From NCBI GenBank assembly GCA_025936205.1, contig JAICTU010000005.1:1-47371 (forward strand): a stretch of DNA of 47,371 nt, in the 5' to 3' direction. This stretch comes from Polyangiaceae bacterium. Lineage in GTDB: Bacteria; Myxococcota; Polyangia; Polyangiales; Polyangiaceae. The position numbers and the translations under genes were made by a program. Position 1 is the first letter of the stretch. Each line of letters starts with the position of its first letter. Below the pieces are notes generated by a model. The model made no database searches and had not been told where the DNA came from. It saw only the letters and a program-made list of their open reading frames with translations. This document shows, one piece after another, positions 16,820 through 41,940 of this stretch.

Positions 16820-16843
16820 GAGGCTCCTCGCTTGGGGAGCCTC
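16820..16843. terminator. Bidirectional hairpin between convergent genes
   Basis: GAGGCTCC and GGAGCCTC form a perfect 8-bp stem with an 8-nt loop, in the 30-bp gap between the AI-2E-family stop and the stop of the FrzS/AglZ-like gene. It is well placed to end both transcripts, but no T-run follows. Confidence 0.55.
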
Positions 16844-19703
16844 AGTTCAGCGGCCGGCTCTCGATCTGCGTCAGCTGCTCCAGCGCAGCCTGCAGAGCTT
16901 CACGGCCCTTGTGGATCGCGTCGCGGTCCTGCTCCCACTTGCTGAGTGCCGCGCTTGCAGTGGCCTGCACGCGCGTGAACTCCCCCTGCAACTGCGCCGT
17001 GTCAGCCCGCGCGGTCGCCAGCTCGGCGCTGAGCTCTCCCAGCTCGCCCTCCAGCTGCGTGATCTTCTGGCGAGCGACCCCGAGCTCGCGCTCGGTGGTG
17101 CCGTGATCGGCGCGCGAGCGCGAGAGCTCCCCGCGCGTCTGCTCCAGGTCTTGCTGCAGCGTTTCCAGATCTTGCCGCAGCGTCATCAGCTCGCTCTGCA
17201 CGCTGCTCAGCTCGCGCTTGGTTGACGCCAGCTGCTCGCCGCGCGCGCTCAGCTCCTTGTTGGCCGTGGCCAGGTCCGCCTGCTCGTGCTCGAGTTCGAA
17301 GCGCGTCGCCTCCAGCTGTTCGCGGATGTCGGCCAGCTCCTGCTGCGCGCTCGCCAGCTGCGCTCGCTCCTGCGCCAGAGCGTCGCGCTCCTGCGCCAAG
17401 GCGCCGCGCGTCTGCTCCAGGCCGTCGCGCGCTTCCGCCAGGTCATTGCGAGCGCTCGCCAGCTCGGCTTGCACTTCGCGCGTGAGCGCGCGCGAAGCCT
17501 GGATGTCGTGCTCGGCGCGCGCCAGCGCGGCGTCTCGTTCGCTTTCGAGGTTGCGGTACTGAACCGCTCTTTCCTCGCTCAGGGTGGCCAGCGCCTGCTC
17601 GTATTCACTGCGCAGCCGCGCTTCTTGGTGCTCCAGCTGCTCACTGTGCTCACGGGCGCCGCGAGCGCGCTCGGCTTCGACCGCGTCCGACAGCTCCTTG
17701 GCGCTGGCCGTGCGCGTGGTCTCCAGCGCGCGAGCCAGCAACTCTTCCGCGTCCGCAGATGCTTCGGCCAGAGCCTCTTCCTTGCTCTGCTCGGCCGCCG
17801 CCAGCGCCGCGTCCATCCGCTGCGCAGCTTCCGCGAGCGCGTGCGCGTTGCTCTGCTCCGCCGCCGCCAGCGCCGCATCCATCCGCTGCGCGGCTTCCGC
17901 GAGCGCGTGCGCTTTGCCCTGCTCCGCCACCGCCAGCGCCGCATCCATTCGCTGCGCGGCTTCCGCGAGCGCGTCTGCCTTGCTCTGCTCCGCCGCCGCC
18001 AGCGCTTGCTCCATGCGCTCCGCCGCCGCGGCCAGCTCCGCTTGCTTGGCTTGCTCGGCCGCCGCCAGCGCCTGATCGACACGCTCGGCGGCTTCTGCCA
18101 GCTCGGCCTGCTGCTTCTGCTCGGCCTGAGCCAGCTGCTCGCGGAGCGCGCTCAGCGCCTGTTCCTTCTCCTGCGCATCGCCCGCGAGCTTCTCCGCGCG
18201 CCGCTTGAAATCCTCCGCGCGCTTGGCAGCTTGCTCTTTGTCGGCCTTGGCGGCGGCGTGCTCGCGCGTCAGCTCGTGCAGCTCCCGCTCCATCTGCAGC
18301 ACGCGATCGACGGCTTCGGTCTTCTCGCGCTCGAACTCCAGGCTGGAGTCCTTGACCGCCAGCAGCTCCTTCGACTTCTGGCTCAGCTGACTGCGCAGGT
18401 CGAGATTCTCCTTGTCCTTCTTGTTCAGCGCCTCGCGCAGCGCCAGGAACTCCTGCGGGCTCGGGCCGCCCGGGGCCGGCGCCGGCCCGCTCTGACGAGC
18501 CTCGCGTGCCGCGGTGAGGTTCCGTTCCAGCTCCGCCCGGCGCTGCTCGAGCTCCGTACGCTGGTGTGTCAGCTGCTCCACTTCGGCGCGCTGCTGCTCC
18601 AGGAGCTCCTGCTGCCGCGCCGCCATGTCTCTCTGCTGCTGCAGCTCGGCCTTGTGCTGCTCCAGCTCCGTCTGTGACGCTGCCAGCAACTCCTGCAGCT
18701 CCAGGATGGCGTCGTCGCGCTCCGCCAGCGCGCGCGGATCGAGCGCAGCCAGCGCCTCGCTCTCCGAAAGCCGCGTCGCCGCCAGCTCCGAGCTGCGCGA
18801 ACGCACGGGCCGCGAAGAAGGCCCGCGCGAAGCGGGCATGGAAGGGACGCGCGACGATACCGGCAGCTGCGAGACAGGCCGCGCTACCGGGCGCTGCGAA
18901 ACCGCCGGCTGGGAAACTGGCCTTTGCGGCACGGGGATGCTGGAGACGGGGCGCTCCGTCGCGCCCGGCGGCGGCGAGTCCACCGGCAGCAAGCTGCGCG
19001 TCGCGTCGACCTTGGTATCCGGATCCTCGCCATCGGGATCTTCCACCGCGCGCGCCGCCAGCTCCTCCTCGTCCAGCAGCGCATCGAAGGCATTCTCGGT
19101 GAACTCGTCTACCTCCGAGTCCACGCCGGACTCGGGGGGGACCGACTCCACGTCCTGCAGCTCCGCCTCGATCTCGGTGTCGAACTGCGTGTCTTCCGCC
19201 GAGTCGGGATCGATCTCCACGTAGGCATCCATCGGCGCCCCCTCCTCCCCGATGTGCACCACCTCGTCTGCGGAATCGAGCTCCGCCGGCTCGAGCTCCT
19301 CCTCCGCTTCCAGCTCGACCCCCGCCTCATCCAGAGGCATCAGAACCCGGATGCGCGGCAGCAGGTCGGTGAACGAGATCGGCTTGTGCACGTAGTCCTG
19401 CGCCTGCGAGTGCTTCAGGCGGCGATGTTGCGCGAACGTGTCCTCGTTCGAGTCGCTGCTCATGATGATGAGCGGCACGCTCTTCAGGCTCGGATCGCGC
19501 TTGAGCTTGTTGCAGACCGAGAAGCCGTTGATGCGCGGCAGCTCGACCGTCAGCAGGATCAGGTCCGGTCGGTTGTTGGCCGCGAGCTGCAGCCCCTCTG
19601 TCGCATCGCCGACCACCGTGACCGCACAAGCATGCTGCTCGAGCCCTCTCTTCAACTCGTCGGCAAAGCGCGCATCAGACTCGAAAATCAGGACTTTGGG
19701 CAT
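16842..19703 (-). CDS. FrzS/AglZ-like protein: pseudo-receiver plus long coiled coil
   Basis: A 953-aa protein. Residues 1-125 are a receiver fold, but the phospho-acceptor position holds Thr52 (LLTVELP) instead of Asp, while the conserved Lys107 (HKP) remains, so it is a pseudo-receiver. The stretch FAQHRRLKHSQAQDYVHKP closely matches the M. xanthus motility protein FrzS. An acidic region (about 125-225) and a Ser/Pro-rich linker (about 230-310) lead to a coiled coil from about 320 to the end, with six 22-residue repeats. FrzS (about 555 aa) and AglZ (about 1400 aa) share this layout and work at cell poles or motility complexes; this protein is between them in size. A gliding/polarity role is inferred. 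It is a single-gene unit. Confidence 0.85.
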   Translation of the reverse strand: MPKVLIFESDARFADELKRGLEQHACAVTVVGDATEGLQLAANNRPDLILLTVELPRINGFSVCNKLKRDPSLKSVPLIIMSSDSNEDTFAQHRRLKHSQAQDYVHKPISFTDLLPRIRVLMPLDEAGVELEAEEELEPAELDSADEVVHIGEEGAPMDAYVEIDPDSAEDTQFDTEIEAELQDVESVPPESGVDSEVDEFTENAFDALLDEEELAARAVEDPDGEDPDTKVDATRSLLPVDSPPPGATERPVSSIPVPQRPVSQPAVSQRPVARPVSQLPVSSRVPSMPASRGPSSRPVRSRSSELAATRLSESEALAALDPRALAERDDAILELQELLAASQTELEQHKAELQQQRDMAARQQELLEQQRAEVEQLTHQRTELEQRRAELERNLTAAREARQSGPAPAPGGPSPQEFLALREALNKKDKENLDLRSQLSQKSKELLAVKDSSLEFEREKTEAVDRVLQMERELHELTREHAAAKADKEQAAKRAEDFKRRAEKLAGDAQEKEQALSALREQLAQAEQKQQAELAEAAERVDQALAAAEQAKQAELAAAAERMEQALAAAEQSKADALAEAAQRMDAALAVAEQGKAHALAEAAQRMDAALAAAEQSNAHALAEAAQRMDAALAAAEQSKEEALAEASADAEELLARALETTRTASAKELSDAVEAERARGAREHSEQLEHQEARLRSEYEQALATLSEERAVQYRNLESERDAALARAEHDIQASRALTREVQAELASARNDLAEARDGLEQTRGALAQERDALAQERAQLASAQQELADIREQLEATRFELEHEQADLATANKELSARGEQLASTKRELSSVQSELMTLRQDLETLQQDLEQTRGELSRSRADHGTTERELGVARQKITQLEGELGELSAELATARADTAQLQGEFTRVQATASAALSKWEQDRDAIHKGREALQAALEQLTQIESRPLN
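17748..18143 (-). repeat. Six tandem 66-bp repeats in the coiled-coil gene
   Basis: Six units of exactly 66 bp begin at 17748, 17814, 17880, 17946, 18012 and 18078. They encode 22-residue units of the form AEAAQRMDAALAAAEQSKA plus three residues. The units at 17814, 17880 and 17946 are nearly identical; the outer ones have diverged. Twenty-two residues equal two hendecads, which suits a straight or slightly right-handed coiled coil. Confidence 0.85.
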
Positions 19704-20795: not shown

Positions 20796-23120
20796 ATGAA
20801 CATCCAGAGACCGCGCACCTCCCTGTCCCTGCTCCCCCTGCTCCTCACCAGCGCGGCGCTCGGCACGGCCTGCTCGGGCGACACCACGAGCCCGACCGAC
20901 TCCGCGAACGGCGGAGTGGACGAAATCGTCTACGCCGTGCGCCAGCACACCACCGTCGACGAAGAGGGCAAGGTACAGGTCGACGTGGCCGGCGGCATGG
21001 GCCAGGTGATGGACTATCGCCGCTACGTGCCGGGTGCCCGCATCGAGGTGCGCAACCTCGCCACCGGCGCGACCCGCAACATCATCGCGGGCGACGAATA
21101 CGCGCTCGCCGACGTGGTCGGCATCGACGTCAGCTTCGACGCCAAGGAGCTGGTCTTCTCCATGCGGCGCGGCGGCGACGACCAGCACTACCACGTGTAC
21201 GTCGCCAACCTCGAGCCCCAGGACGGCGATTACAAAATTCGCCAGCTCACCTTCGGCGATCGCGACGACATGCAGCCGCTGTGGCTGGCGGGGGGCAAGA
21301 TCGCGTTCGTCACCAACCAGGCGTACACGGACATGGGCACCCGCGCCGACGAATACGAGCACGGCCGTGACGTGACGCAACTGGCCACGATCACTCGCGA
21401 CGGCGGCGACGCCGATCGCAAGGTCTGCTCGCAGAACCTGTCACACACAGTGAACTTGTTCAGCCTGCAGAGCGGCAAGATCGGCTACTCGCGCTGGGAG
21501 CACCTGGAGAACGTCAACGACCTCAAGGTCATGGCGGTCAACCCCGACTGCACGAAGATGGTCGCTGTCGCGACCCAGCACGAAAAGTACTGGAACTCCA
21601 TGGTGCAGGTGCAGGAGACGAAGGACCCGAACGTCTTCGTGGGCATCGCCACCAACCGCGAAGGCACCATCCAGGCCGGCGCGCTGATGAAGATTGACGC
21701 GCGCGCCGAGGCGGCGCCTGACGTGCTGGACGAAGAGACCGCGCACTACGAGCTGCTCACGCCGGGCGTACCCGTCGACAACTCGCCCTCGCCGGTCAAC
21801 GTCGGCCGCTACCGTACACCCTACGTGATGCCGGACGGGCGCATCCTGGTCAGCTGGGCCAAGGGCTTCGTCAACGACCTCGACGAGATGTCGCTCAGCC
21901 CGCCCGACTTCGGCCTGTACATCTACAACACCGAGAACCACACCAACGAGCTGGTCGTGAACTACGAGGACTCGTGGGAGCTCGACGCGCGCCCCGTGCT
22001 GCCCCGCACGGAGCCCCCGATCCTGAGCTCGGTGCAGACCTCGGACGACGCGAGCCTCGCGGCGCGCATCGGCTCGATCGACATCAAGACCACCTCACTC
22101 TTCAGCCTGCACGGCAACACCGTCTCCGGCGCGCAGTTCAACGACACCCCGCTAGATGACGCCCTGCGGTCGGCGACGCGCGTGCGCATCATCGAAGGCT
22201 TCTCCTCCGAGGGCGCGCCCGGCGTGACGATGTTCGGCCTGACCATGGCCGAAGGCGCGGCGCTGATCGGCGAGGCCACGGTGCGCGAGGACGGCTCCTG
22301 GCTCGCGGAAGTGCCGCCCTACGTGCCGGTGCATCTGCAGCCGATCGACGAGTTCGATCTGATGATCCGCAGCCAGACCACCTGGATTCAATCGATGCCG
22401 GGCGAGTCGCGCGTGTGCGGCGGCTGCCACGAGCGGCGCACCGAGGCCTTCAAGCCCTCGCAGGGCGCGCTCACGCTGGCGGCGGCGGATCCGCAGAACT
22501 TCATGCAGCCCGTCTCCGAGCGCCAGGAGTATCCCTGGGACAAGGCCAACGCCGGCAAGGAAGCCAACGAGATCCAGGCGCTGCTCACGAACAAGTGCTC
22601 CAACTGCCACAACGAGACGACCAACGGCAGTGGCCCGCAGGAGACCTACACGGTGACCATGACGGACCAGGAGACGGGCACCCAGACTCCGTACACGCTG
22701 CCTCGCCTCGACCTGAGCGATCGCCCCATCACGGTCACCTACGACCGCAAGGTCGCCAGCTGGCCCGCCTCGTACGTGTCGCTCTTCTACCCCGCGACGC
22801 TGCAGATGGACATGGCGATGGGCGCCCAGCTCACCGCCGGTACGGCGCCGCCTGCCTGGGCCCGCCCCAGCGACGCGCGCAACAGCGCCCTGATCGAGAA
22901 GCTCAACATCACCGACTGGCATGACGAGAGCCGCACGGCCTGGCCGCTCGGCGCTGCCTTCAGCGACAAGGGAATCAAGGGCGCCACGCGCACCCTGCAC
23001 CCCGAAGACGTGGGTGTGACCTTGACCCGCGACGAGCGCGTCAAGCTGATCCGCGCCATCGACATGGGTGGCCAGTACTACTCGCGGCAGAACACCACGT
23101 TCCAGCCGATGGGGCGCTGA
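20796..23120 (+). CDS. Dihaem lipoprotein related to hydrazine synthase alpha subunit family
   Basis: A 774-aa exported protein with a lipobox ending GTAC (Cys26). The N-terminal half (about 35-440) reads as a TolB/PD40-like beta-propeller (SFDAKELVFSMRR, IRQLTFGDRDDMQPLWLAGG). A middle domain follows (about 460-540: DGSWLAEVPPYVPVHLQPID, MPGESRVCGGCHE), which matches the pattern of the HzsA middle domain. Haem sites CxxCH are at Cys541/Cys544/His545 and Cys601/Cys604/His605. True HzsA is a propeller-middle-haem protein too, but no HzsB or HzsC is present, so hydrazine synthesis is not implied. The ATG at 20796 directly precedes the signal peptide. It is first gene of an operon with the HEAT-repeat protein (40-bp gap). 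Substrate and electron partner are unknown. Confidence 0.8.
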   Translation: MNIQRPRTSLSLLPLLLTSAALGTACSGDTTSPTDSANGGVDEIVYAVRQHTTVDEEGKVQVDVAGGMGQVMDYRRYVPGARIEVRNLATGATRNIIAGDEYALADVVGIDVSFDAKELVFSMRRGGDDQHYHVYVANLEPQDGDYKIRQLTFGDRDDMQPLWLAGGKIAFVTNQAYTDMGTRADEYEHGRDVTQLATITRDGGDADRKVCSQNLSHTVNLFSLQSGKIGYSRWEHLENVNDLKVMAVNPDCTKMVAVATQHEKYWNSMVQVQETKDPNVFVGIATNREGTIQAGALMKIDARAEAAPDVLDEETAHYELLTPGVPVDNSPSPVNVGRYRTPYVMPDGRILVSWAKGFVNDLDEMSLSPPDFGLYIYNTENHTNELVVNYEDSWELDARPVLPRTEPPILSSVQTSDDASLAARIGSIDIKTTSLFSLHGNTVSGAQFNDTPLDDALRSATRVRIIEGFSSEGAPGVTMFGLTMAEGAALIGEATVREDGSWLAEVPPYVPVHLQPIDEFDLMIRSQTTWIQSMPGESRVCGGCHERRTEAFKPSQGALTLAAADPQNFMQPVSERQEYPWDKANAGKEANEIQALLTNKCSNCHNETTNGSGPQETYTVTMTDQETGTQTPYTLPRLDLSDRPITVTYDRKVASWPASYVSLFYPATLQMDMAMGAQLTAGTAPPAWARPSDARNSALIEKLNITDWHDESRTAWPLGAAFSDKGIKGATRTLHPEDVGVTLTRDERVKLIRAIDMGGQYYSRQNTTFQPMGR

Positions 23121-23160
23121 CCGGGAACTCCGAGCAGAAAGTCTAACGAGGAACACGCAG

Positions 23161-24111
23161 ATGACACACCGTTCACTGGTCCGCGCCGCCTTCACCTTCC
23201 TGGCCGCCCTCGCGGCCTCCCCGCTGAGCTCGGCTCAGGATGGGAGCAGCGATGCCGCGAGCATCGAGGCCCGCAACACCGCCGGCCGTGCCACCGTCTA
23301 CCAGCAGATGGATCAGGCGTCGCTGGAGACGCTGTCCACGCCCAACCGGCTGCGCAACATCGCCAAGGGCGGCTTCGCCCCGACCGAGATCTGGCGCACC
23401 CTGGAGCACGGCGAGAAGGTCGAGTGCCTCGACTGCATCCCTGCCATCTCCAAGCTGCTCTACGACGGCGACGCTCGCACCCGCGAGATCAGCGCCTGGT
23501 GGCTGCGCCGCCGCATCTTCGGCGTGTTCGGCCCGGGCCAGGTGTACGAGCGCACCATCAGCACGCTCGACGACAAGACCAAGTCGGAGAAGCAGCGCGC
23601 CTATGCCGCCGAAGCGCTGGGTGAGTTCCTGTCCTCCGCCGGCACGCCGCACGTGGCGCGCGCGCTCGTGGAAGATTCCTCGCCCCTGGTGCGGCTGAGC
23701 GCGGTACACGCGCTGCAGCGCCTGAACACCGCGGGCCCGAACACCGAGCTCAGCGTCGCACTGGCCGATCCGGACGAGAAGGTGCGCGTCGCCGCGCTCC
23801 ACGCGAGCACTCGCATCAACGCCTTCAACGATATCGCCGCCGTCGCCGGACTGGTGGACGACAGCTCCTCCACGGTGCGCACCCGCGCGCTGGAGGCGCT
23901 CGGCACCCTGAAGGCCAGAGACGCGGTGGTCGCGATCGCGGCCAAGCTCTCGCCCGCCAACGAGAGCAGCGCCAGCGTGCGTGCCGCGGCTGCAACCGCG
24001 CTCGGCCAGATCGGTGACGCCTCGGTGCGCCAGGCCGTGCAAGACGCCCGCGACAACGACCCCGACCACTTCGTGCGCGACGCCGCCGCCGTGGCCTTGC
24101 GCCAGCTGTAA
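23161..24111 (+). CDS. Secreted HEAT-repeat protein
   Basis: A 316-aa protein with a signal peptide (cleavage near SSAQDG, about residue 25) and no membrane anchor. A non-repeat part (about 26-110) contains CLDC (two Cys, no following His, so not a haem site). From about 130 to 316 come HEAT/PBS-lyase-type repeats of about 30 residues (VRLSAVHALQRL, VRVAALHASTRI, VRTRALEALGTL, VRAAAATALGQI, VRDAAAVALRQL). Such repeats usually form a scaffold for protein contacts. AGGA precedes the ATG at 23161. Lying between two HzsA-like haem proteins, it is probably their periplasmic or surface partner (inference). Confidence 0.88.
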   Translation: MTHRSLVRAAFTFLAALAASPLSSAQDGSSDAASIEARNTAGRATVYQQMDQASLETLSTPNRLRNIAKGGFAPTEIWRTLEHGEKVECLDCIPAISKLLYDGDARTREISAWWLRRRIFGVFGPGQVYERTISTLDDKTKSEKQRAYAAEALGEFLSSAGTPHVARALVEDSSPLVRLSAVHALQRLNTAGPNTELSVALADPDEKVRVAALHASTRINAFNDIAAVAGLVDDSSSTVRTRALEALGTLKARDAVVAIAAKLSPANESSASVRAAAATALGQIGDASVRQAVQDARDNDPDHFVRDAAAVALRQL

Positions 24112-24142
24112 GCGGAAGGGGGCAAAGCGCAGCCCCCAAATC

Positions 24143-24189
24143 GCCTGCCCCTGCCCCTGGCCCGGACCTCCGCCGCGCCGGGGGCAGGC
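24143..24189 (+). terminator. Possible hairpin between HEAT-repeat gene and next haem gene
   Basis: GCCTGCCCC (24143-24151) and GGGGCAGGC (24181-24189) can form a 9-bp stem with a 29-nt loop in the 128-bp gap. No T-run follows. It may be a partial terminator or processing stem that sets expression of the third gene apart. Confidence 0.3.
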
Positions 24190-24239
24190 CATTTCGGCCT
24201 CAGGTTCCCGAGCCGTATTCCTGCTTCGTGGGAGTCCGC

Positions 24240-27200
24240 ATGATGAAGCTCTCTGCCGTTTTCTCAGGCCCGCGGCTGCCCAGCGCGCTGCTGGCGCTGC
24301 TCGCCGGGTCCTGCGCGCAGCAACAACCCGACCCGGGCGAAACCTACTACACGCGCAAGATCTATCCGATCTTGCACGCGGGTTGCGTCACCAGCCCGAA
24401 CGGCTCTCAGTGCCACCTGATCCAGGACACGCGCGGGAACGCCTTCGGCAACGTGAGCTTCGACAGCTACGACGCCATCAACAAGCGTCGCGATCTGCTG
24501 GCGCCGTACGGCCCGTACGCGATGCCCAACCTGCTGCTCAAGACGCTGCCGCCCTTTCAGCTGGGCCTGAGCAACTGGAAAGGCGACGACCCGGAGTACA
24601 TCACGACCGACGTCGCGCATGCCGGCGGCCGCCTGCTGGACGTGACCAGCGTCACCTTCACCGAGCTCTCGCGCTGGATCTCGCGCGGCGCCACCGAGAA
24701 CAACACGCTCGCGCCGGAGGAGCAGCGCGTGCTCAGCGACTGCAGCGACGCGATCGGCTCGGATCCGGCGTTCGATCCGCGCCGCGATCCGAGCAATGCC
24801 GACTTCGCCGCCTTCCGCGACTCGGTGAACCCGGTGCTCGGCCAGCGCTGCGCGGCCGGCAACTGCCACGGCTCGCCCGGCAACTCGATGTACCTGACCT
24901 GCGGCAACAGCGACGAGCAGATCCGCTGGAACTACTTCGAGGTCGGTGACTACGTCTCGCACAGCCCGCGCACCAGCGAGATCCTGCGCCGCGCGCTCGA
25001 TCCCGCAGCGGGCGGCACCTTCCACGAAGGCGGCACCGTCTTCAGCACCTCCGATGATCCGGACTGGCAGAAGCTGCTGGCCTGGGCGGAGGAGAAGGGC
25101 GCCCCCAACCGCGACTCTGACGATCCGGGCTTCGTCTTCTTCACCGATCGCGTCCAGCCCATGCTGGTCAAGAAGGGCTGCATGCAGCTCGGCTGCCACT
25201 CGCCAGGCATGGGGCACGAATACCGGCTGCACGGCGGCAGCGCCGGCCACTTCAGCTTGCCGGCGACGCGGCGCAACTACGAGCTGTCGCTGGAGCAGAT
25301 CTCGCTCGAATCGAACGATCCGAACGCGAGCCGCATCGTGCGCAAGAACCTGCCGCCACAGCGCAACGGTATCATCCACCGCGGCGGCTCGCTGTTCTCG
25401 GACGCGGGCAACCCCGCGAGCTGCGACCTGAATGCCGCCGCCACGGGACCGCTGGACGCTCAGAACCCGTACTGCGTGATCGCTGCCTGGATCGGGCTCG
25501 AGCGCCAGCAGCGCATGCCCAGCGATCCCGGCATGACGGACATCGTGTACGTCAGCTCGCCTGCCGGCACGGGCCCCGCGAGCCCACAAGACTTCGAGCA
25601 CTTCGCGCCGGGCGCGGATCTGCTGCGCGTGCGCGCCTCGATCGGCGCCGACGGCTGGCCGACGCTGAATGGCAGTCCGGAGAGTTTGCTCGCCAGCTGC
25701 GGGCTCGGCGCCGGCGTCGACGTGCGGCGACCTGCCGCTTCCTGGGACGGCAAGCGCATCGCCTTCTCGGCGCGCACGGCCGCTAGCGCTCCCTGGCGCA
25801 TCTACGTGCTGGAGGGCTCGGCCTGCGCCCTCGAAGCCGCGATCGACGCGCGCCCGGTGGACGACAAGGGCAAGGCCCTGCCGGACAACGGCGAGCTCGT
25901 GCACAACTTCGATCCCACCTTCAGCGCCGACGGCCGGATCGTGTTTGCGTCCACGCGCGGCAACGTGACCAACGCCGAGGCCTTCGACTACAGCGGGCCC
26001 CAGCGTTCGCCCGCCGACCCCAGCCGGCTCAACTCCAACCTGTACGTGAGCGAGCCGGGCGGCATCCGCCAGCTCACTTACCTGCTCGATCAAGAGCTCT
26101 CGCCCTCGTTCATGGTCGACGGGCGGCTGATCTTCTCGACCGAGAAGCGCAGCCCCGGCTTCTACCAGATCGCCGGGCGGCGCATGAACCTGGACGGCGG
26201 CGACTACCATCCGCTGTTCGGACAGCGCTCGACGGTCGGCTTCGACCAGTTCACCGAAGTGGTGGAGCTCAGCGATCGCAACCTGGCGGCGATCTTCAGC
26301 CAGCGCGGCGCCGCGCGCGGCGCCGGCACGCTCGCGATCATCAACCGCAGCCTGGGCATCGACCAGCGCAGCGACAACCCGGAAGACTATCTGCTCGATC
26401 CGAACGCGATCGAGTGGGCCAACACCGACTTCTACCAGCACTCCATCCGCGTCCCGGATGCGGCGGCCACCGGCACCCTGGACGCAACCCGCGGCGCATA
26501 CCTGAGCCCCTCGCCGTTGCCGAACGGCCGCGTGCTGCTGAGCTACGCCGCCGGCGCGACGAACCTGCATAGCATCGGCGGTAGCTTTGCGCTGGCCGTG
26601 CTCGATCCCGTGAGCGGCGAACGCCGCGAGCTATCGAGCGGCGCTGACGACCGGCTCTGGCCCATCGCGGTCTATGCGCACGGCACGCGCCCCATCTTCC
26701 GCTCCAAGATCGACGAGCCCAACGGTGCGACCCGCGTCGACAGCGGCGGCAACTTCTCGGACGTCACCTATCTCGATCTGCCGCTGCTCTCCAGCTTGCT
26801 CTTCCAGAACACCCGGAGCGGCCGCCCCTTCGCCGAGAAATCGGGTGACGTGCAGTTCTGGGAGCAGCTGCCCCCGACCCGCGGCGTCACCAGCTTTGCC
26901 AACGCCGGCGCGTTCGCCACCAGCGACGCCTTTGGCCCGCTCTACGTGCGCCGGCGCCCGCTCGGCGCCGTTGCCCCTGACGCCAAGGACGGCTCTGCGC
27001 ACGTCCGCTTGCCGGGCGGCGTCCCTTTCAACCTGGCCATGAACATCCAGCTCGAGGGCGAGAACAGCCCTACCCTGCATCATCAGCGCGAGGCCATGCA
27101 GTTCTACCCCGGCGAGTCCGCCCGCCAGTCCTTCCCACGCACGCTCTTCAACGGGGTGTGCGCCAGTTGCCACGGCTCCGTCAGCGGCTACGAAGACGAC

Positions 27201-27311
27201 ATCGCGACCAACCCCGACATTCTCACCCGCGCATCGGCCGTGGCCGCGCGCAATCAGGATGCCGCGGACCTGACCGGCCGCGGCGATGCCGAGGGGCCCG
27301 AGTTTCCCTGA
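24240..27311 (+). CDS. Large multihaem-motif lipoprotein, HzsA-like C-terminal half
   Basis: A 1023-aa lipoprotein with a lipobox ending AGSC (Cys25). The N-terminal third carries cytochrome-like sites: Cys49...Cys58-His59 (CX8CH), Cys204-Cys209-His210 (CAAGNCH) and Cys314-Cys319-His320 (CMQLGCH). A PD40/TolB-like propeller follows (about 435-880; ASWDGKRIAFSAR, FDPTFSADGRIVFASTRG, SPSFMVDGRLIFSTEKR). A domain ending in LPGGVPFNLAMNIQLEG, YPGES and haem site CASCH (Cys974, Cys977, His978) closes it. The last part parallels the middle/haem part of the first gene of this operon. GGGAG precedes the ATG at 24240. Whether the CX4CH and CX8CH sites carry haem is uncertain. Probably an extracytoplasmic redox protein. 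Confidence 0.8.
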   Translation: MMKLSAVFSGPRLPSALLALLAGSCAQQQPDPGETYYTRKIYPILHAGCVTSPNGSQCHLIQDTRGNAFGNVSFDSYDAINKRRDLLAPYGPYAMPNLLLKTLPPFQLGLSNWKGDDPEYITTDVAHAGGRLLDVTSVTFTELSRWISRGATENNTLAPEEQRVLSDCSDAIGSDPAFDPRRDPSNADFAAFRDSVNPVLGQRCAAGNCHGSPGNSMYLTCGNSDEQIRWNYFEVGDYVSHSPRTSEILRRALDPAAGGTFHEGGTVFSTSDDPDWQKLLAWAEEKGAPNRDSDDPGFVFFTDRVQPMLVKKGCMQLGCHSPGMGHEYRLHGGSAGHFSLPATRRNYELSLEQISLESNDPNASRIVRKNLPPQRNGIIHRGGSLFSDAGNPASCDLNAAATGPLDAQNPYCVIAAWIGLERQQRMPSDPGMTDIVYVSSPAGTGPASPQDFEHFAPGADLLRVRASIGADGWPTLNGSPESLLASCGLGAGVDVRRPAASWDGKRIAFSARTAASAPWRIYVLEGSACALEAAIDARPVDDKGKALPDNGELVHNFDPTFSADGRIVFASTRGNVTNAEAFDYSGPQRSPADPSRLNSNLYVSEPGGIRQLTYLLDQELSPSFMVDGRLIFSTEKRSPGFYQIAGRRMNLDGGDYHPLFGQRSTVGFDQFTEVVELSDRNLAAIFSQRGAARGAGTLAIINRSLGIDQRSDNPEDYLLDPNAIEWANTDFYQHSIRVPDAAATGTLDATRGAYLSPSPLPNGRVLLSYAAGATNLHSIGGSFALAVLDPVSGERRELSSGADDRLWPIAVYAHGTRPIFRSKIDEPNGATRVDSGGNFSDVTYLDLPLLSSLLFQNTRSGRPFAEKSGDVQFWEQLPPTRGVTSFANAGAFATSDAFGPLYVRRRPLGAVAPDAKDGSAHVRLPGGVPFNLAMNIQLEGENSPTLHHQREAMQFYPGESARQSFPRTLFNGVCASCHGSVSGYEDDIATNPDILTRASAVAARNQDAADLTGRGDAEGPEFP

Positions 27312-28138: not shown

Positions 28139-29134
28139 ATGAAGCTCGCTCGCAGCCGCTCCGGCGCAGTCACACCCGCCACCCGTCCAGCGGCTCGCCG
28201 GACCTACCGGGCGCTGCGCTGGGCGCCGCTCTGTTCGGGCTTGTTCGCATGCGCGGGCGCGCATCCTCCCGCGGCGCAAGAGCCCCGCGCTCCGCTGCCG
28301 GCCGACATCGTGGCCAAGTCGGCAGCGCCACTGTACGCCTTGCGCACCGACGATCCCAAGGCGGAGAAGCTGACCGCTCCCGCGATGTGGGATGAAATGG
28401 CCAAGGCACGCGTGGTGTGCTTCGGCGAACAACACGATCTGCCGGCCCACCACTTCGCCCAGCGCCGTGCGTTGGAAGAGGTCGCGGCGCGCGCGATCTC
28501 CGAGCACGGCGTCTTCGCCGTGGGCTTCGAGATGTTTCAGCGACCCTACCAGGCGGCGCTGAGCGGCTTCGTCGGTGGAACACTGCCCGAAGCTCAGTTC
28601 CTGGCCGAGACCGAATACAAGGAGCGCTGGGGTTTCGACTTCGCCCTGTATCGGCCGCTGCTGCTCGCCGCGCGCGAGTACAATCTGGAGGCGCTCGCGC
28701 TGAATGCGCCCAAGGAGCTGACGCGCAAGATCGGCCATTCCGGCCTGGCCTCCCTGGACGCCGGAGAGAAGCAGCAGCTCCCCGAGCTCGACCTCGACAA
28801 CCTGGATCACAAATCCTACTTCGACGCCGCGATGTCGGAGCATCCGATGCCGGCGGGGAGCCCGAAGATGGCAGACATGTACGCGGCGCAGGTCGTGTGG
28901 GACGAGACGATGGCCGAGACCGCTTCCAACTGGCTCTCCCACGCCGGCGAGAACGCCCGCTTCATGGTGTTCGCGGGCAGCGGCCACTGCCACAAGGCGG
29001 CGATTCCCGCGCGCATCACGCGCCGCGTGCACATCCCCGTACTCAGCTCGAGTGCCGTCCTGGCCTCTGAGCTGCCCACGTTCAAGGACCGGAACCGCTA
29101 CGATTGGCTCGTGGTGGTGCAGGACACCAAGTGA
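28139..29134 (+). CDS. ChaN-like haem-binding lipoprotein (TIKI/EreA superfamily)
   Basis: A 331-aa protein with a long basic N-terminus and lipobox ending LFAC (Cys38). The conserved ChaN/PF04187 blocks are GEQHDLPAHHFAQ, VGFEMFQRPYQ and the C-terminal FAGSGHCHKAAIPARI. ChaN of Campylobacter binds two cofacial haems; other superfamily members are proteases (TIKI) or esterases (EreA). The Glu-His pairs that define the superfamily site are kept, so either haem binding or hydrolysis is possible. The location just after a haem-protein operon favours haem handling, but the strand switch at 27316-28017 argues against one transcript. Confidence 0.82.
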   Translation: MKLARSRSGAVTPATRPAARRTYRALRWAPLCSGLFACAGAHPPAAQEPRAPLPADIVAKSAAPLYALRTDDPKAEKLTAPAMWDEMAKARVVCFGEQHDLPAHHFAQRRALEEVAARAISEHGVFAVGFEMFQRPYQAALSGFVGGTLPEAQFLAETEYKERWGFDFALYRPLLLAAREYNLEALALNAPKELTRKIGHSGLASLDAGEKQQLPELDLDNLDHKSYFDAAMSEHPMPAGSPKMADMYAAQVVWDETMAETASNWLSHAGENARFMVFAGSGHCHKAAIPARITRRVHIPVLSSSAVLASELPTFKDRNRYDWLVVVQDTK

Positions 29135-40046: not shown

Positions 40047-41300
40047 TCACTGGACGTGCATCAGCGTGATGCGCTGGCGGCGAGCACGCAACACCACGTT
40101 CGCGTTGGGCGAGGTGGACGACTGCGCGTACTCGAGCCGGTACGTCTGCGACGCGCCCGACAAGTTCACCACCATCGAGCCCGAGAAGGGCAGAATGTCT
40201 CCGGTGGCGAAGAAGTCGGTGTCGTTTGGCATCGCGCCCACGGCGCCGTTGTCGACGCCCGAGCCGTCGCGCAGGAAGCCGCGCGTCGAGTTCTCGGTCA
40301 CGTCGCGCAGGCGGGCCGCGAACATGGCGCCGGGCACCGTGGTGGTGCGCATGATCTCGGCGTACCAGCTGAGCAGGTACGTGCCGGGCTCGGGCGCCGT
40401 CACGGTCAGCGTGGCCGGCGTGGTCGGCGTGGGCTGATAGCTGCCGGCGATCAGCGTGCCGGGCATGCCGATGTCACCTTCGACCGCGACGTTGTACACA
40501 TCGATCACACCGGGCGGGCCATCGAGGCCGGGCTCGCCCGGAGGACCCATGGGGCCCGTCGGACCGGTGGCGCCTGGCTGCCCCGCAGGACCGGTCGGAC
40601 CCAGGGCGCCGTCGGTGCCGGGCGCTCCATCCGCGCCGGCGGGACCTTGCGCGCCGGTGGGGCCGGTGGGGCCGGCGGGACCTTGCGGACCCGCGGGGCC
40701 TTGCGCGCCCGGAGCGCCGTCAGCGCCGGGAATGCCCATCGGACCGATCGGGCCCTGTTCGCCTTGCGCGCCAGTTGCACCGGCGGGGCCTTGCGCGCCA
40801 GTTGCACCGGTCGCACCGGTCGCACCCGGGATACCCGCGGGCCCTTGCGGCCCCACAGGACCCGCGGGACCCACCGCACCTGCCGGGCCCTGCGCGCCCT
40901 GCGCGCCGGCAGGACCCATCGGGCCCATCGGACCCATCGGACCCATCGGACCCATCGGACCCATCGGACCCATTGCACCGGCGGGGCCCATCGCGCCCGT
41001 TGCACCCGGTGCACCAGCGGGACCCTGGGGACCTGCCGGACCCGTGGCGCCCCGCGCGCCGGCGGGGCCTTGGGCGCCCGTCGCGCCGCGCGGACCGGTG
41101 GGGCCCGTCGGACCCGTCGGGCCTTGCGTCCCCCCACCGGGACACCACGGATTGTAGAAGCTGCTCAGCGCCTCTTCGGTCTGCCCGTAGGACGCGGGCT
41201 CCTCCGACAGCGCCTGCGTCGTCGTTTCGATCTGACTCTCACAAGCAAACGTACCGAGCACGAACAGCGTCAGCAGACCTTGTACACTTCGCATTCTCAT
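40047..41300 (-). CDS. Collagen-like lipoprotein
   Basis: A 417-aa lipoprotein; the ATG at 41300 has GGAGA upstream, and the lipobox ends TFAC (Cys20). A Ser/Glu-rich stalk (about 21-56) leads to about 75 uninterrupted Gly-X-Y triplets (about 57-283), rich in GPA, GAT and GPM. A C-terminal globular domain of about 130 residues ([32 protein letters not shown]) looks beta-rich, like BclA/C1q-type trimerising heads. Gly-X-Y with Pro mainly in X and little hydroxylation context is typical of bacterial collagens (Scl, BclA). It likely forms a trimeric surface filament. A strong terminator follows; the upstream region is structured. Confidence 0.93.
40912..40974 (-). repeat. Seven tandem 9-bp repeats (Gly-Pro-Met codons)
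   Basis: Seven copies of GGACCCATC (one GGGCCCATC, one GGACCCATT) follow one another without gaps inside the collagen-like gene and encode repeated Gly-Pro-Met. Near-identical units of this size are prone to slip in register, so the length may vary between strains without shifting the reading frame. Confidence 0.9.
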
Positions 41301-41940
41301 CGATGTTCTCCGAATCATCGGTGGGGAGGGTTCGCGCTCAGGGGACACCACCCCCGCTGAAACGCAGGCACTCGCTCCTCACCGGCGCTCGCGCGGCTGC
41401 GAGGCATCCAGTCATCGTGCGGGCGTCGCGACCGGCGCGGCTCTCTGCCGGGTCACGAGCACCCGGGGTTTCGGAGTGCGCTCAGAAAACGTGGCTGACG
41501 GAACCACTTAATCAAGACAGGGAGGAAATTTACAATCTTGGTTAAGTGGGTCCGTATGCGGACCCGTAGCTTGCATGCACAGCGCGGCGCACTCCAATCT
41601 CGAGACATTTGTTAACCAGCCACTCTCGAGTGCGCGGCATGGACTGCGGACGCTGGTTCTTAACTCCGCGTCCTCGCCGGCACCGCGGCGCTGCGCTCGA
41701 TTGCACACTCACACCTACGCCGCGCCGCGTCTTAACGCAGGTGTTTCACAGTGTCCGCGCACGTCCTAACGCAGCTTCGAGGCACTCTTAACTCGCTGCC
41801 CGGCGAGTTGTGCTTCAGGCGTTCCGTGGTGACGCGGCCCTCCCCGGTGCGATGAAACAGCGCTGGAACAGCGACGCGCAGTTAGCGGATCGCGAGGCAC
41901 AGTCGTCGATGTGCGACTCGTGCGGCGCCGCAGGTCTGCA
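41301..41940. other. 640-bp structured intergenic region, unusually rich in TTAA
   Basis: There is no credible gene between the collagen-like and CDF genes. The sequence contains inverted repeats at 41500-41517/41536-41553, 41548-41565 and 41587-41594/41628-41635. TTAA occurs about six times (near 41509, 41542, 41612, 41660, 41732, 41788) although the neighbouring DNA is very GC-rich. Promoters for the collagen-like gene, and possibly a small RNA, should lie here. Confidence 0.6.
41500..41565 (-). promoter_or_regulatory. Two overlapping hairpins upstream of collagen-like gene
   Basis: GGAACCACTTAATCAAGA (41500-41517) pairs with TCTTGGTTAAGTGGGTCC (41536-41553) at 16 of 18 positions around an 18-nt loop. 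GGGTCCG (41548-41554) pairs with CGGACCC (41559-41565) with a 4-nt loop. Both stems need 41548-41553, so only one can form at a time. If transcription of the collagen-like gene starts upstream, this is an attenuator- or switch-like leader; it could also be a bound operator. Confidence 0.45.

Follow-up and report, generated by a model that had tools for sequence, protein, structure and literature searches.

What might two proteins built like the alpha subunit of hydrazine synthase (HzsA) do in a myxobacterium, with a secreted HEAT-repeat protein encoded between them? The question is raised by three genes, P1, HEAT and P3, all on the + strand at 20796..27311 of a 47,371 nt stretch of DNA from a Polyangiaceae bacterium (hereafter the window), where they are bracketed by a hisIE gene and a zinc peptidase gene, both on the - strand. 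Our preferred answer, held with moderate confidence, is that this trio of one myxobacterial lineage encodes a cell-envelope multihaem c-type assembly having an electron path and a HEAT protein as holder or assembler. The original prediction, made from the DNA letters, had described two large lipoproteins with a common closing pattern flanking a secreted HEAT gene on one strand, and coordinates, motifs and profile comparison bear this out. The elements of the trio are as follows (rows are aligned homologues; x is any residue; aa, amino acids).

20796..23120 (+): P1, HzsA-like lipoprotein with two haem motifs, 774 aa; propeller at about 28-404, middle domain, CxxCH, and a C-terminal cytochrome part with CxxCH
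22416..22430 (+): P1 haem motif C541GGCH545, at the place of HzsA haem alpha-I; CxxCH in 116/116 rows; aligns with HzsA CSGCH
22596..22610 (+): P1 haem motif C601SNCH605, at the place of HzsA haem alpha-II; 116/116 rows; weak alignment with HzsA CAMCH
23161..24111 (+): HEAT-repeat protein, secreted, 316 aa; N-terminal module, conserved CxxC; HEAT_2 at 1.5e-21
23425..23436 (+): CxxC of the HEAT protein, C89 and C92, its sole cysteines; CxxC in 25/25 rows (loci and window)
24243..27311 (+): P3, HzsA-like lipoprotein of 1022 aa; three cytochrome-c-like motifs in the N-terminal part, propeller at about 430-813, middle-like domain, CxxCH
24384..24416 (+): P3 motif 1, C48x8CH58; Cx8CH in 116/119 rows
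24849..24869 (+): P3 motif 2, C203x4CH209; 119/119 rows, and 35/35 rows from loci and window
25179..25199 (+): P3 motif 3, C313x4CH319; 119/119 rows, and 35/35 rows from loci and window
27159..27173 (+): P3 motif 4, C973ASCH977, at the place of haem alpha-I; 119/119 rows, and 34/35 from loci and window, with one gap

The best fold match of the predicted structures of both P1 and P3 is HzsA of Kuenenia (5c2v), with a long structural match, although the search scarcely covered residues 1-346 of the P3 model. Profile-profile comparison of P1 with P3 aligned 444 columns (probability 99, E 7.7e-18), and both proteins close on a common pattern (DGS..VP..PGES..CGGCH545 in P1, DGS..VP..PGES..CASCH977 in P3). 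P1 passes the curated cut-off of the Pfam family HZS_alpha (PF18582; 54.6 vs 26.6 bits), as do two P3 homologues of genome G054, one in a trio and one stand-alone, and a P3 homologue of G097 scores 26.2 of 26.6 bits. For P3 the middle domain is indicated by the fold match, the comparison with P1 and these distant homologues, with no Pfam match of the window protein itself. The models thus support the view that both proteins keep the propeller, middle domain and haem order of HzsA, as originally predicted, and the structure comparison, in which a missing middle domain would have refuted that prediction, did not refute it. In a FastTree reconstruction of 80 HzsA-like proteins (571 columns, midpoint root) the 25 P1 rows all group together (support 1.0), and so do the 35 P3 and P3-like rows with a protein of locus L090 (support 1.0); these separate, fully supported groups indicate that P1 and P3 are separate, old branches. 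P3 has duplicated since then. The L090 protein is a 1109-residue open reading frame (ORF; L090:1823-5149, -) with CAAGCH, CFLQSCH and two CxxCH, scored higher by the P3 profile than by the P1 profile and placed by the tree in a group with L057 and L058, next to the remaining P3 rows; it possibly represents a combined P1/P3 layout.

The three wide N-terminal motifs of P3, which the original prediction had missed along with the pairing of the only two cysteines of HEAT as C89xxC92, raise the number of potential haem sites. The conservation given above refers to 116 P1 rows (the window and 115 of the best 120 of 1280 matches) and 119 P3 rows (the window and 118 of the best 120 of 757 matches). 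The rows of the latter set without Cx8CH at motif 1 have Cx9CH (1) or miss that part (2), and the 35 rows from fetched loci and window divide into 19 Cx8CH, 13 Cx6CH and 3 gaps. By chance CxxCH is expected at a mean of 0.001 to 0.0025 per protein, as estimated from shuffled sequences. The P1 of L041 has CGTNGCH at an aligned site where L042 and L044 have CVSCH, and this swap between CxxCH and Cx4CH at one site makes Cx4CH a likely haem site here; the HzsA-like protein of L083 carries one CxxCH and one Cx4CH. P1 and P3 are accordingly predicted from their motifs to bind covalent haem c, the wide motifs being the least sure, and the natural exchange could be used to test what width of haem motif the maturation system accepts. 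Selenocysteine was considered for P3-like genes with an in-frame TGA (L032, L033, L035, L054) or TAG (L038) and rejected, because the stop sits within a few residues of the C-terminal end of the match, as a normal stop does.

Does the fold then imply hydrazine chemistry? The hydrazine synthase complex was once held to be without homologues outside anammox bacteria, and the HzsA relatives found later have no shown function, according to excerpts of PMC12758564. In HzsA itself, the ligands are His587 of CxxCH for zinc and Tyr591 for the haem iron (excerpts of PMC12607021 and PMC12758564). Tyrosine at the latter place (H+4) occurs in 0/116 P1 rows and 0/119 P3 rows. P1 rows have no tyrosine at any position from H+1 to H+6, with E at H+1 and R at H+3 in 116/116 (S at H+1 in the distant L037), and 21/119 P3 rows, that of the window included, have one two residues further on, at H+6, which might serve as a different tyrosine ligand. 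The stretch of P1 between 253 and 540, where Cys303 of HzsA would fall by numbering alone, is free of cysteine; Cys303 is not retained in all anammox bacteria in the excerpted account of PMC12758564. P1 H735, kept in 24/25 rows with the other row truncated, is a candidate only for the distal His772 of HzsA. Scores against the NCBIfam equivalog NF052339 (45 bits for P1, 17.6 for P3) fall short of its cut-off of 800 bits. Besides P1, no other gene pick with at least two CxxCH was seen in the window or in L020-L045 (flanks of about 5 kb), which speaks against a haem partner like HzsC beside the trio. The original prediction that HzsB and HzsC are absent is therefore supported for HzsC within these loci, HzsB, which has no haem motif, not having been searched for.

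That the trio is a nitrogen-converting enzyme close to hydrazine synthase is suggested by the HzsA-like fold and by haem motifs where HzsA has alpha-I and alpha-II, but the missing tyrosine and P1 cysteine, the low equivalog score and the lack of an adjoining HzsC-like haem gene make this highly improbable. On sequence evidence the trio is most likely not hydrazine synthase, and hydrazine synthesis is not expected of it. Like HzsA (5c2v), both proteins have the propeller, the middle domain and CxxCH, and P1 also has the second C-terminal CxxCH; unlike HzsA, P3 carries additional haem-type motifs in its N-terminal part and lacks a second C-terminal one, and the trio is without an equivalent of Tyr591, none having been seen for Cys303 either. 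The excerpts of PMC12758564 describe parallels in non-anammox HzsA-like clades I-IV, some of which have two haem motifs, with the same two-residue gap at Ser590-Tyr591 in clades I-III. There, however, the partners are a beta-gamma homologue of fused type, joined in clades I-III by an FG-GAP protein (same excerpts), whereas those of the trio are HEAT and a second HzsA-like protein. The main text of PMC12758564 has 0 occurrences of Myxococc- or Polyangi-. The trio provides a non-anammox setting in which to learn the role of the HzsA fold without Tyr591 and the usual partners.

Whether the three genes belong together was assessed in 282 genomes drawn evenly from one phylum (Myxococcota, going by the named loci), the window's own genome not being among them, by scoring the best candidates per genome from phylum-wide searches (8 for HEAT, 2 for P3, 3 for P1; five genomes were rescored fully for P3). 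The P1 profile matched 24/282 genomes at E 1e-40 or better, the HEAT profile 31/282 at 1e-15 and the P3 profile 29/282 at 1e-40. HEAT matches of the 24 P1 genomes start at or before profile position 76 and those of the other 7 only from 118, as general repeats would, and P3 matches of the 24 reach 2e-174 or better, with the other 5 at 1e-41 to 1e-47 and lacking the first part. P1, HEAT and a full-length P3-type protein thus share the same 24 genomes, and among the best candidates scored none of the three was found in the other 258/282. A contiguous P1-HEAT-P3 order on one strand is present in 19/24 genomes (P3 of G274 being cut by a contig end), and two more (G133, G097; 2/24) would fit a trio interrupted by contig ends. 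In G097 the P1 match ends within 110 bases of a contig end, and the contig carrying HEAT and P3 has no P1 piece at E 1e-4. The trio also occurs in G008 (L085), outside the sample, and 7/7 Polyangia/Myxococcales loci among the HEAT-scan matches listed (L001-L007, of which G001 and G004 also belong to the 282 genomes) show P1, HEAT and P3 in this order, with a cut P3 in L002. Distances within 21 trios are strongly correlated (P1-P3 0.960, P1-HEAT 0.896, P3-HEAT 0.921; 0/2000 permutations each), which fits joint inheritance and is not by itself proof of interaction. Their joint presence in relatives makes it probable that the three genes act together. We found no publication on this trio in the open-access literature searched, in agreement with the original remark that no description of such a gene order was known; it is a real, conserved arrangement of a known superfamily.

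How might such a set of proteins work? We propose that P1, with two CxxCH, and P3, with one CxxCH and three wide-spaced N-terminal sites, would be divergent HzsA-superfamily lipoproteins in which the placing of a haem next to the propeller and middle domain follows HzsA. Electrons could pass between the N-terminal haems of P3 and the sites that resemble those of HzsA. The exported HEAT protein, whose main tie is to P1, may hold or assemble P1 with P3. Gene order, predicted folds, motifs, conservation and co-occurrence are the observations from which haem loading, complex formation, the redox role and the role of HEAT are inferred.

Several observations weigh against this proposal. P1 and HEAT adjoin in G074, G283 and G035 (3/24) with P3-type genes only elsewhere, all P3 candidates having been scored; the remaining full-length P3-type copies of G074 and G283 fall in stand-alone tree groups, and in G035 P3 is found on a different contig and the HEAT gene reads in two frames. 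The original claim of a link between HEAT and both haem genes consequently stands for P1, beside which HEAT is conserved in these relatives, and fails for P3 in these three genomes. Stand-alone P3-like genes without adjoining HEAT also exist, so P3 need not act with P1, and window P3 itself has no PF18582 match at E 0.1. The correlated distances may reflect shared descent only. Finally, by analogy, a protein with haem c does not have to transfer electrons: excerpts of PMC8833165 hold this to be unlikely for TfcP, a non-canonical cytochrome c of Myxococcus xanthus.

This last precedent, in which TfcP acts on PilY1 (same excerpts), lends weight to a reading in which the haems are structural or sensory and P1, P3 and HEAT form a non-redox envelope complex for adhesion, signalling or cofactor-dependent stability. 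It would also accord with the flanks of the trio loci, which have no gene cluster common to all and in particular no oxidoreductase partner cluster. We consider it unlikely, if credible, as up to six haem-type sites over two proteins and an HzsA-like active-site place would seem to suit electron transfer better.

The multihaem electron-transfer assembly that we favour leaves a role to be assigned to HEAT. It adjoins P1 in 23/24 sampled P1 genomes and lies on another contig in G097. Since 3/24 genomes keep P1-HEAT without adjoining P3, HEAT is tied more tightly to P1 than to P3. A partnership of HEAT with the wide motifs of P3 was disfavoured because HEAT stays with P1 in those three genomes and because the stand-alone P3-like loci (L046-L056, L059) show no HEAT match. 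The split HEAT gene beside P1 in G035 (L036:1544-2796, -) is possibly due to a frameshift or assembly error, and G035 is the only genome of its clade without P3 at the locus. CxxC is kept in 119/120 HEAT homologues listed, the sole miss being a 195-aa protein, and 23/25 HEAT rows have no other cysteine past residue 45. Like CpcE and NblB, HEAT-repeat tetrapyrrole lyases or degraders, the protein has HEAT repeats, but it differs in being exported and in having CxxC, and its NCBIfam scores are far under their cut-offs (CpcE 33.2 of 330, NblB 30.9 of 300), including that for E/F-type bilin lyases. Planctomycetes-Verrucomicrobia-Chlamydiae (PVC)-type proteins of TIGR02603 and TIGR02604 join propeller, HEAT and haem c in single long proteins; the same three domain kinds are here spread over three separate proteins, for which no such family was listed at E up to 0.1.

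CcmH and CcmG provide an analogue for a further possibility, that HEAT is a dedicated assembly factor whose CxxC handles apocytochrome cysteines or haem for P1 (and P3). The constant CxxC with scarcely any further cysteine, export together with the tie to P1, the kinship to tetrapyrrole-handling proteins, distant as it is, and a gene upstream of P1 in four loci (L031, L032, L033, L036), which we take from its sequence to be DsbD-like, would all agree with this. Yet the plain CxxCH of P1 should need no helper, stand-alone P3-like genes with wide motifs lack adjoining HEAT, and the CxxC may be a plain disulfide, and we regard the idea as rather unlikely. More doubtful still is the conjunction of two novelties, namely that HEAT would be a new dedicated cytochrome c assembly or gating partner, its CxxC acting on HzsA-superfamily cysteines or haem, and that the trio would at the same time be an envelope multihaem oxidoreductase of a new class, with wide-spaced motifs, two HzsA-like subunits and no beta-gamma partner.

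How far do these genes extend beyond the trio-bearing genomes? PF18582 was detected in 44/282 Myxococcota genomes (0/14 control genomes) vs 24 with the trio genes, so this phylum also contains HzsA-like genes unaccompanied by the trio. At 1e-12 the P1 profile gave distant HzsA-like matches in 1/199 Acidobacteriota genomes sampled and 22/194 genomes of a second outside sample (the phylum of G291), which by the genus we take to be Verrucomicrobiota; the triad was found in neither sample. Conservation of HEAT beside a haem gene in relatives, as anticipated at the outset, is accordingly a result for Myxococcota. Twenty loci were chosen from among the matches (14 and 2 from the two outside samples, 3 from Myxococcota outside the 24, and G008), and 0/19 of the non-trio HzsA-like loci had a HEAT-profile match at E 1e-3 in flanks that mostly spanned about 5 kb or stopped where the contig ends. 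In the Acidobacteriota sample a 960-residue ORF with ten CxxCH (L083:1673-4552, -) lies near an HzsA-like gene and resembles the ten-haem beta-gamma partners described, in excerpts, for clade I HzsA-like genes.

Within the window, 40 bases separate P1 from HEAT and 131 bases HEAT from P3, the latter gap holding the following element.

24118..24205 (+): G+C-rich stem-loops between HEAT and P3, with no T run; z -2.52 for 24108-24245, 2/200 shuffles folding equally well

Terminator prediction called no terminator in this gap, and the stem-loops are possibly a processing or attenuation element. In L039, L040 and L042 the P1 stop overlaps a possible GTG start of HEAT as GTGA, which fits translational coupling provided that GTG is the true HEAT start. 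By eye, P1 (..LGTAC26) and P3 (..LAGSC24) begin with a lipoprotein-like signal and HEAT with a plain signal peptide; a loose lipobox pattern is present in 106/116 P1 rows and 106/119 P3 rows. A wider operon around the trio was rejected, as its neighbours change from clade to clade: close relatives of the window have a hisIE-like gene and one resembling a response regulator, and distant ones have what we presume to be mutS-like and other genes. Three loci with a stand-alone P3-like gene (L048, L049, L050) have common neighbours that we take to be SelD, a hemerythrin-type protein, a cytochrome b-ferredoxin fusion and a subtilase. Shortly downstream of the trio, 28139-29134 (+) encodes a ChaN/Tiki-like haem-binding lipoprotein (PF04187, 1e-54) that clusters with no gene of the other fetched loci. 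Elsewhere in the window, 16842-19703 (-) encodes a protein of 953 aa that has a response regulator receiver domain and weakly matches SMC-like coiled coils, and 40047-41351 (-) a protein with three collagen-like repeat stretches (PF01391).

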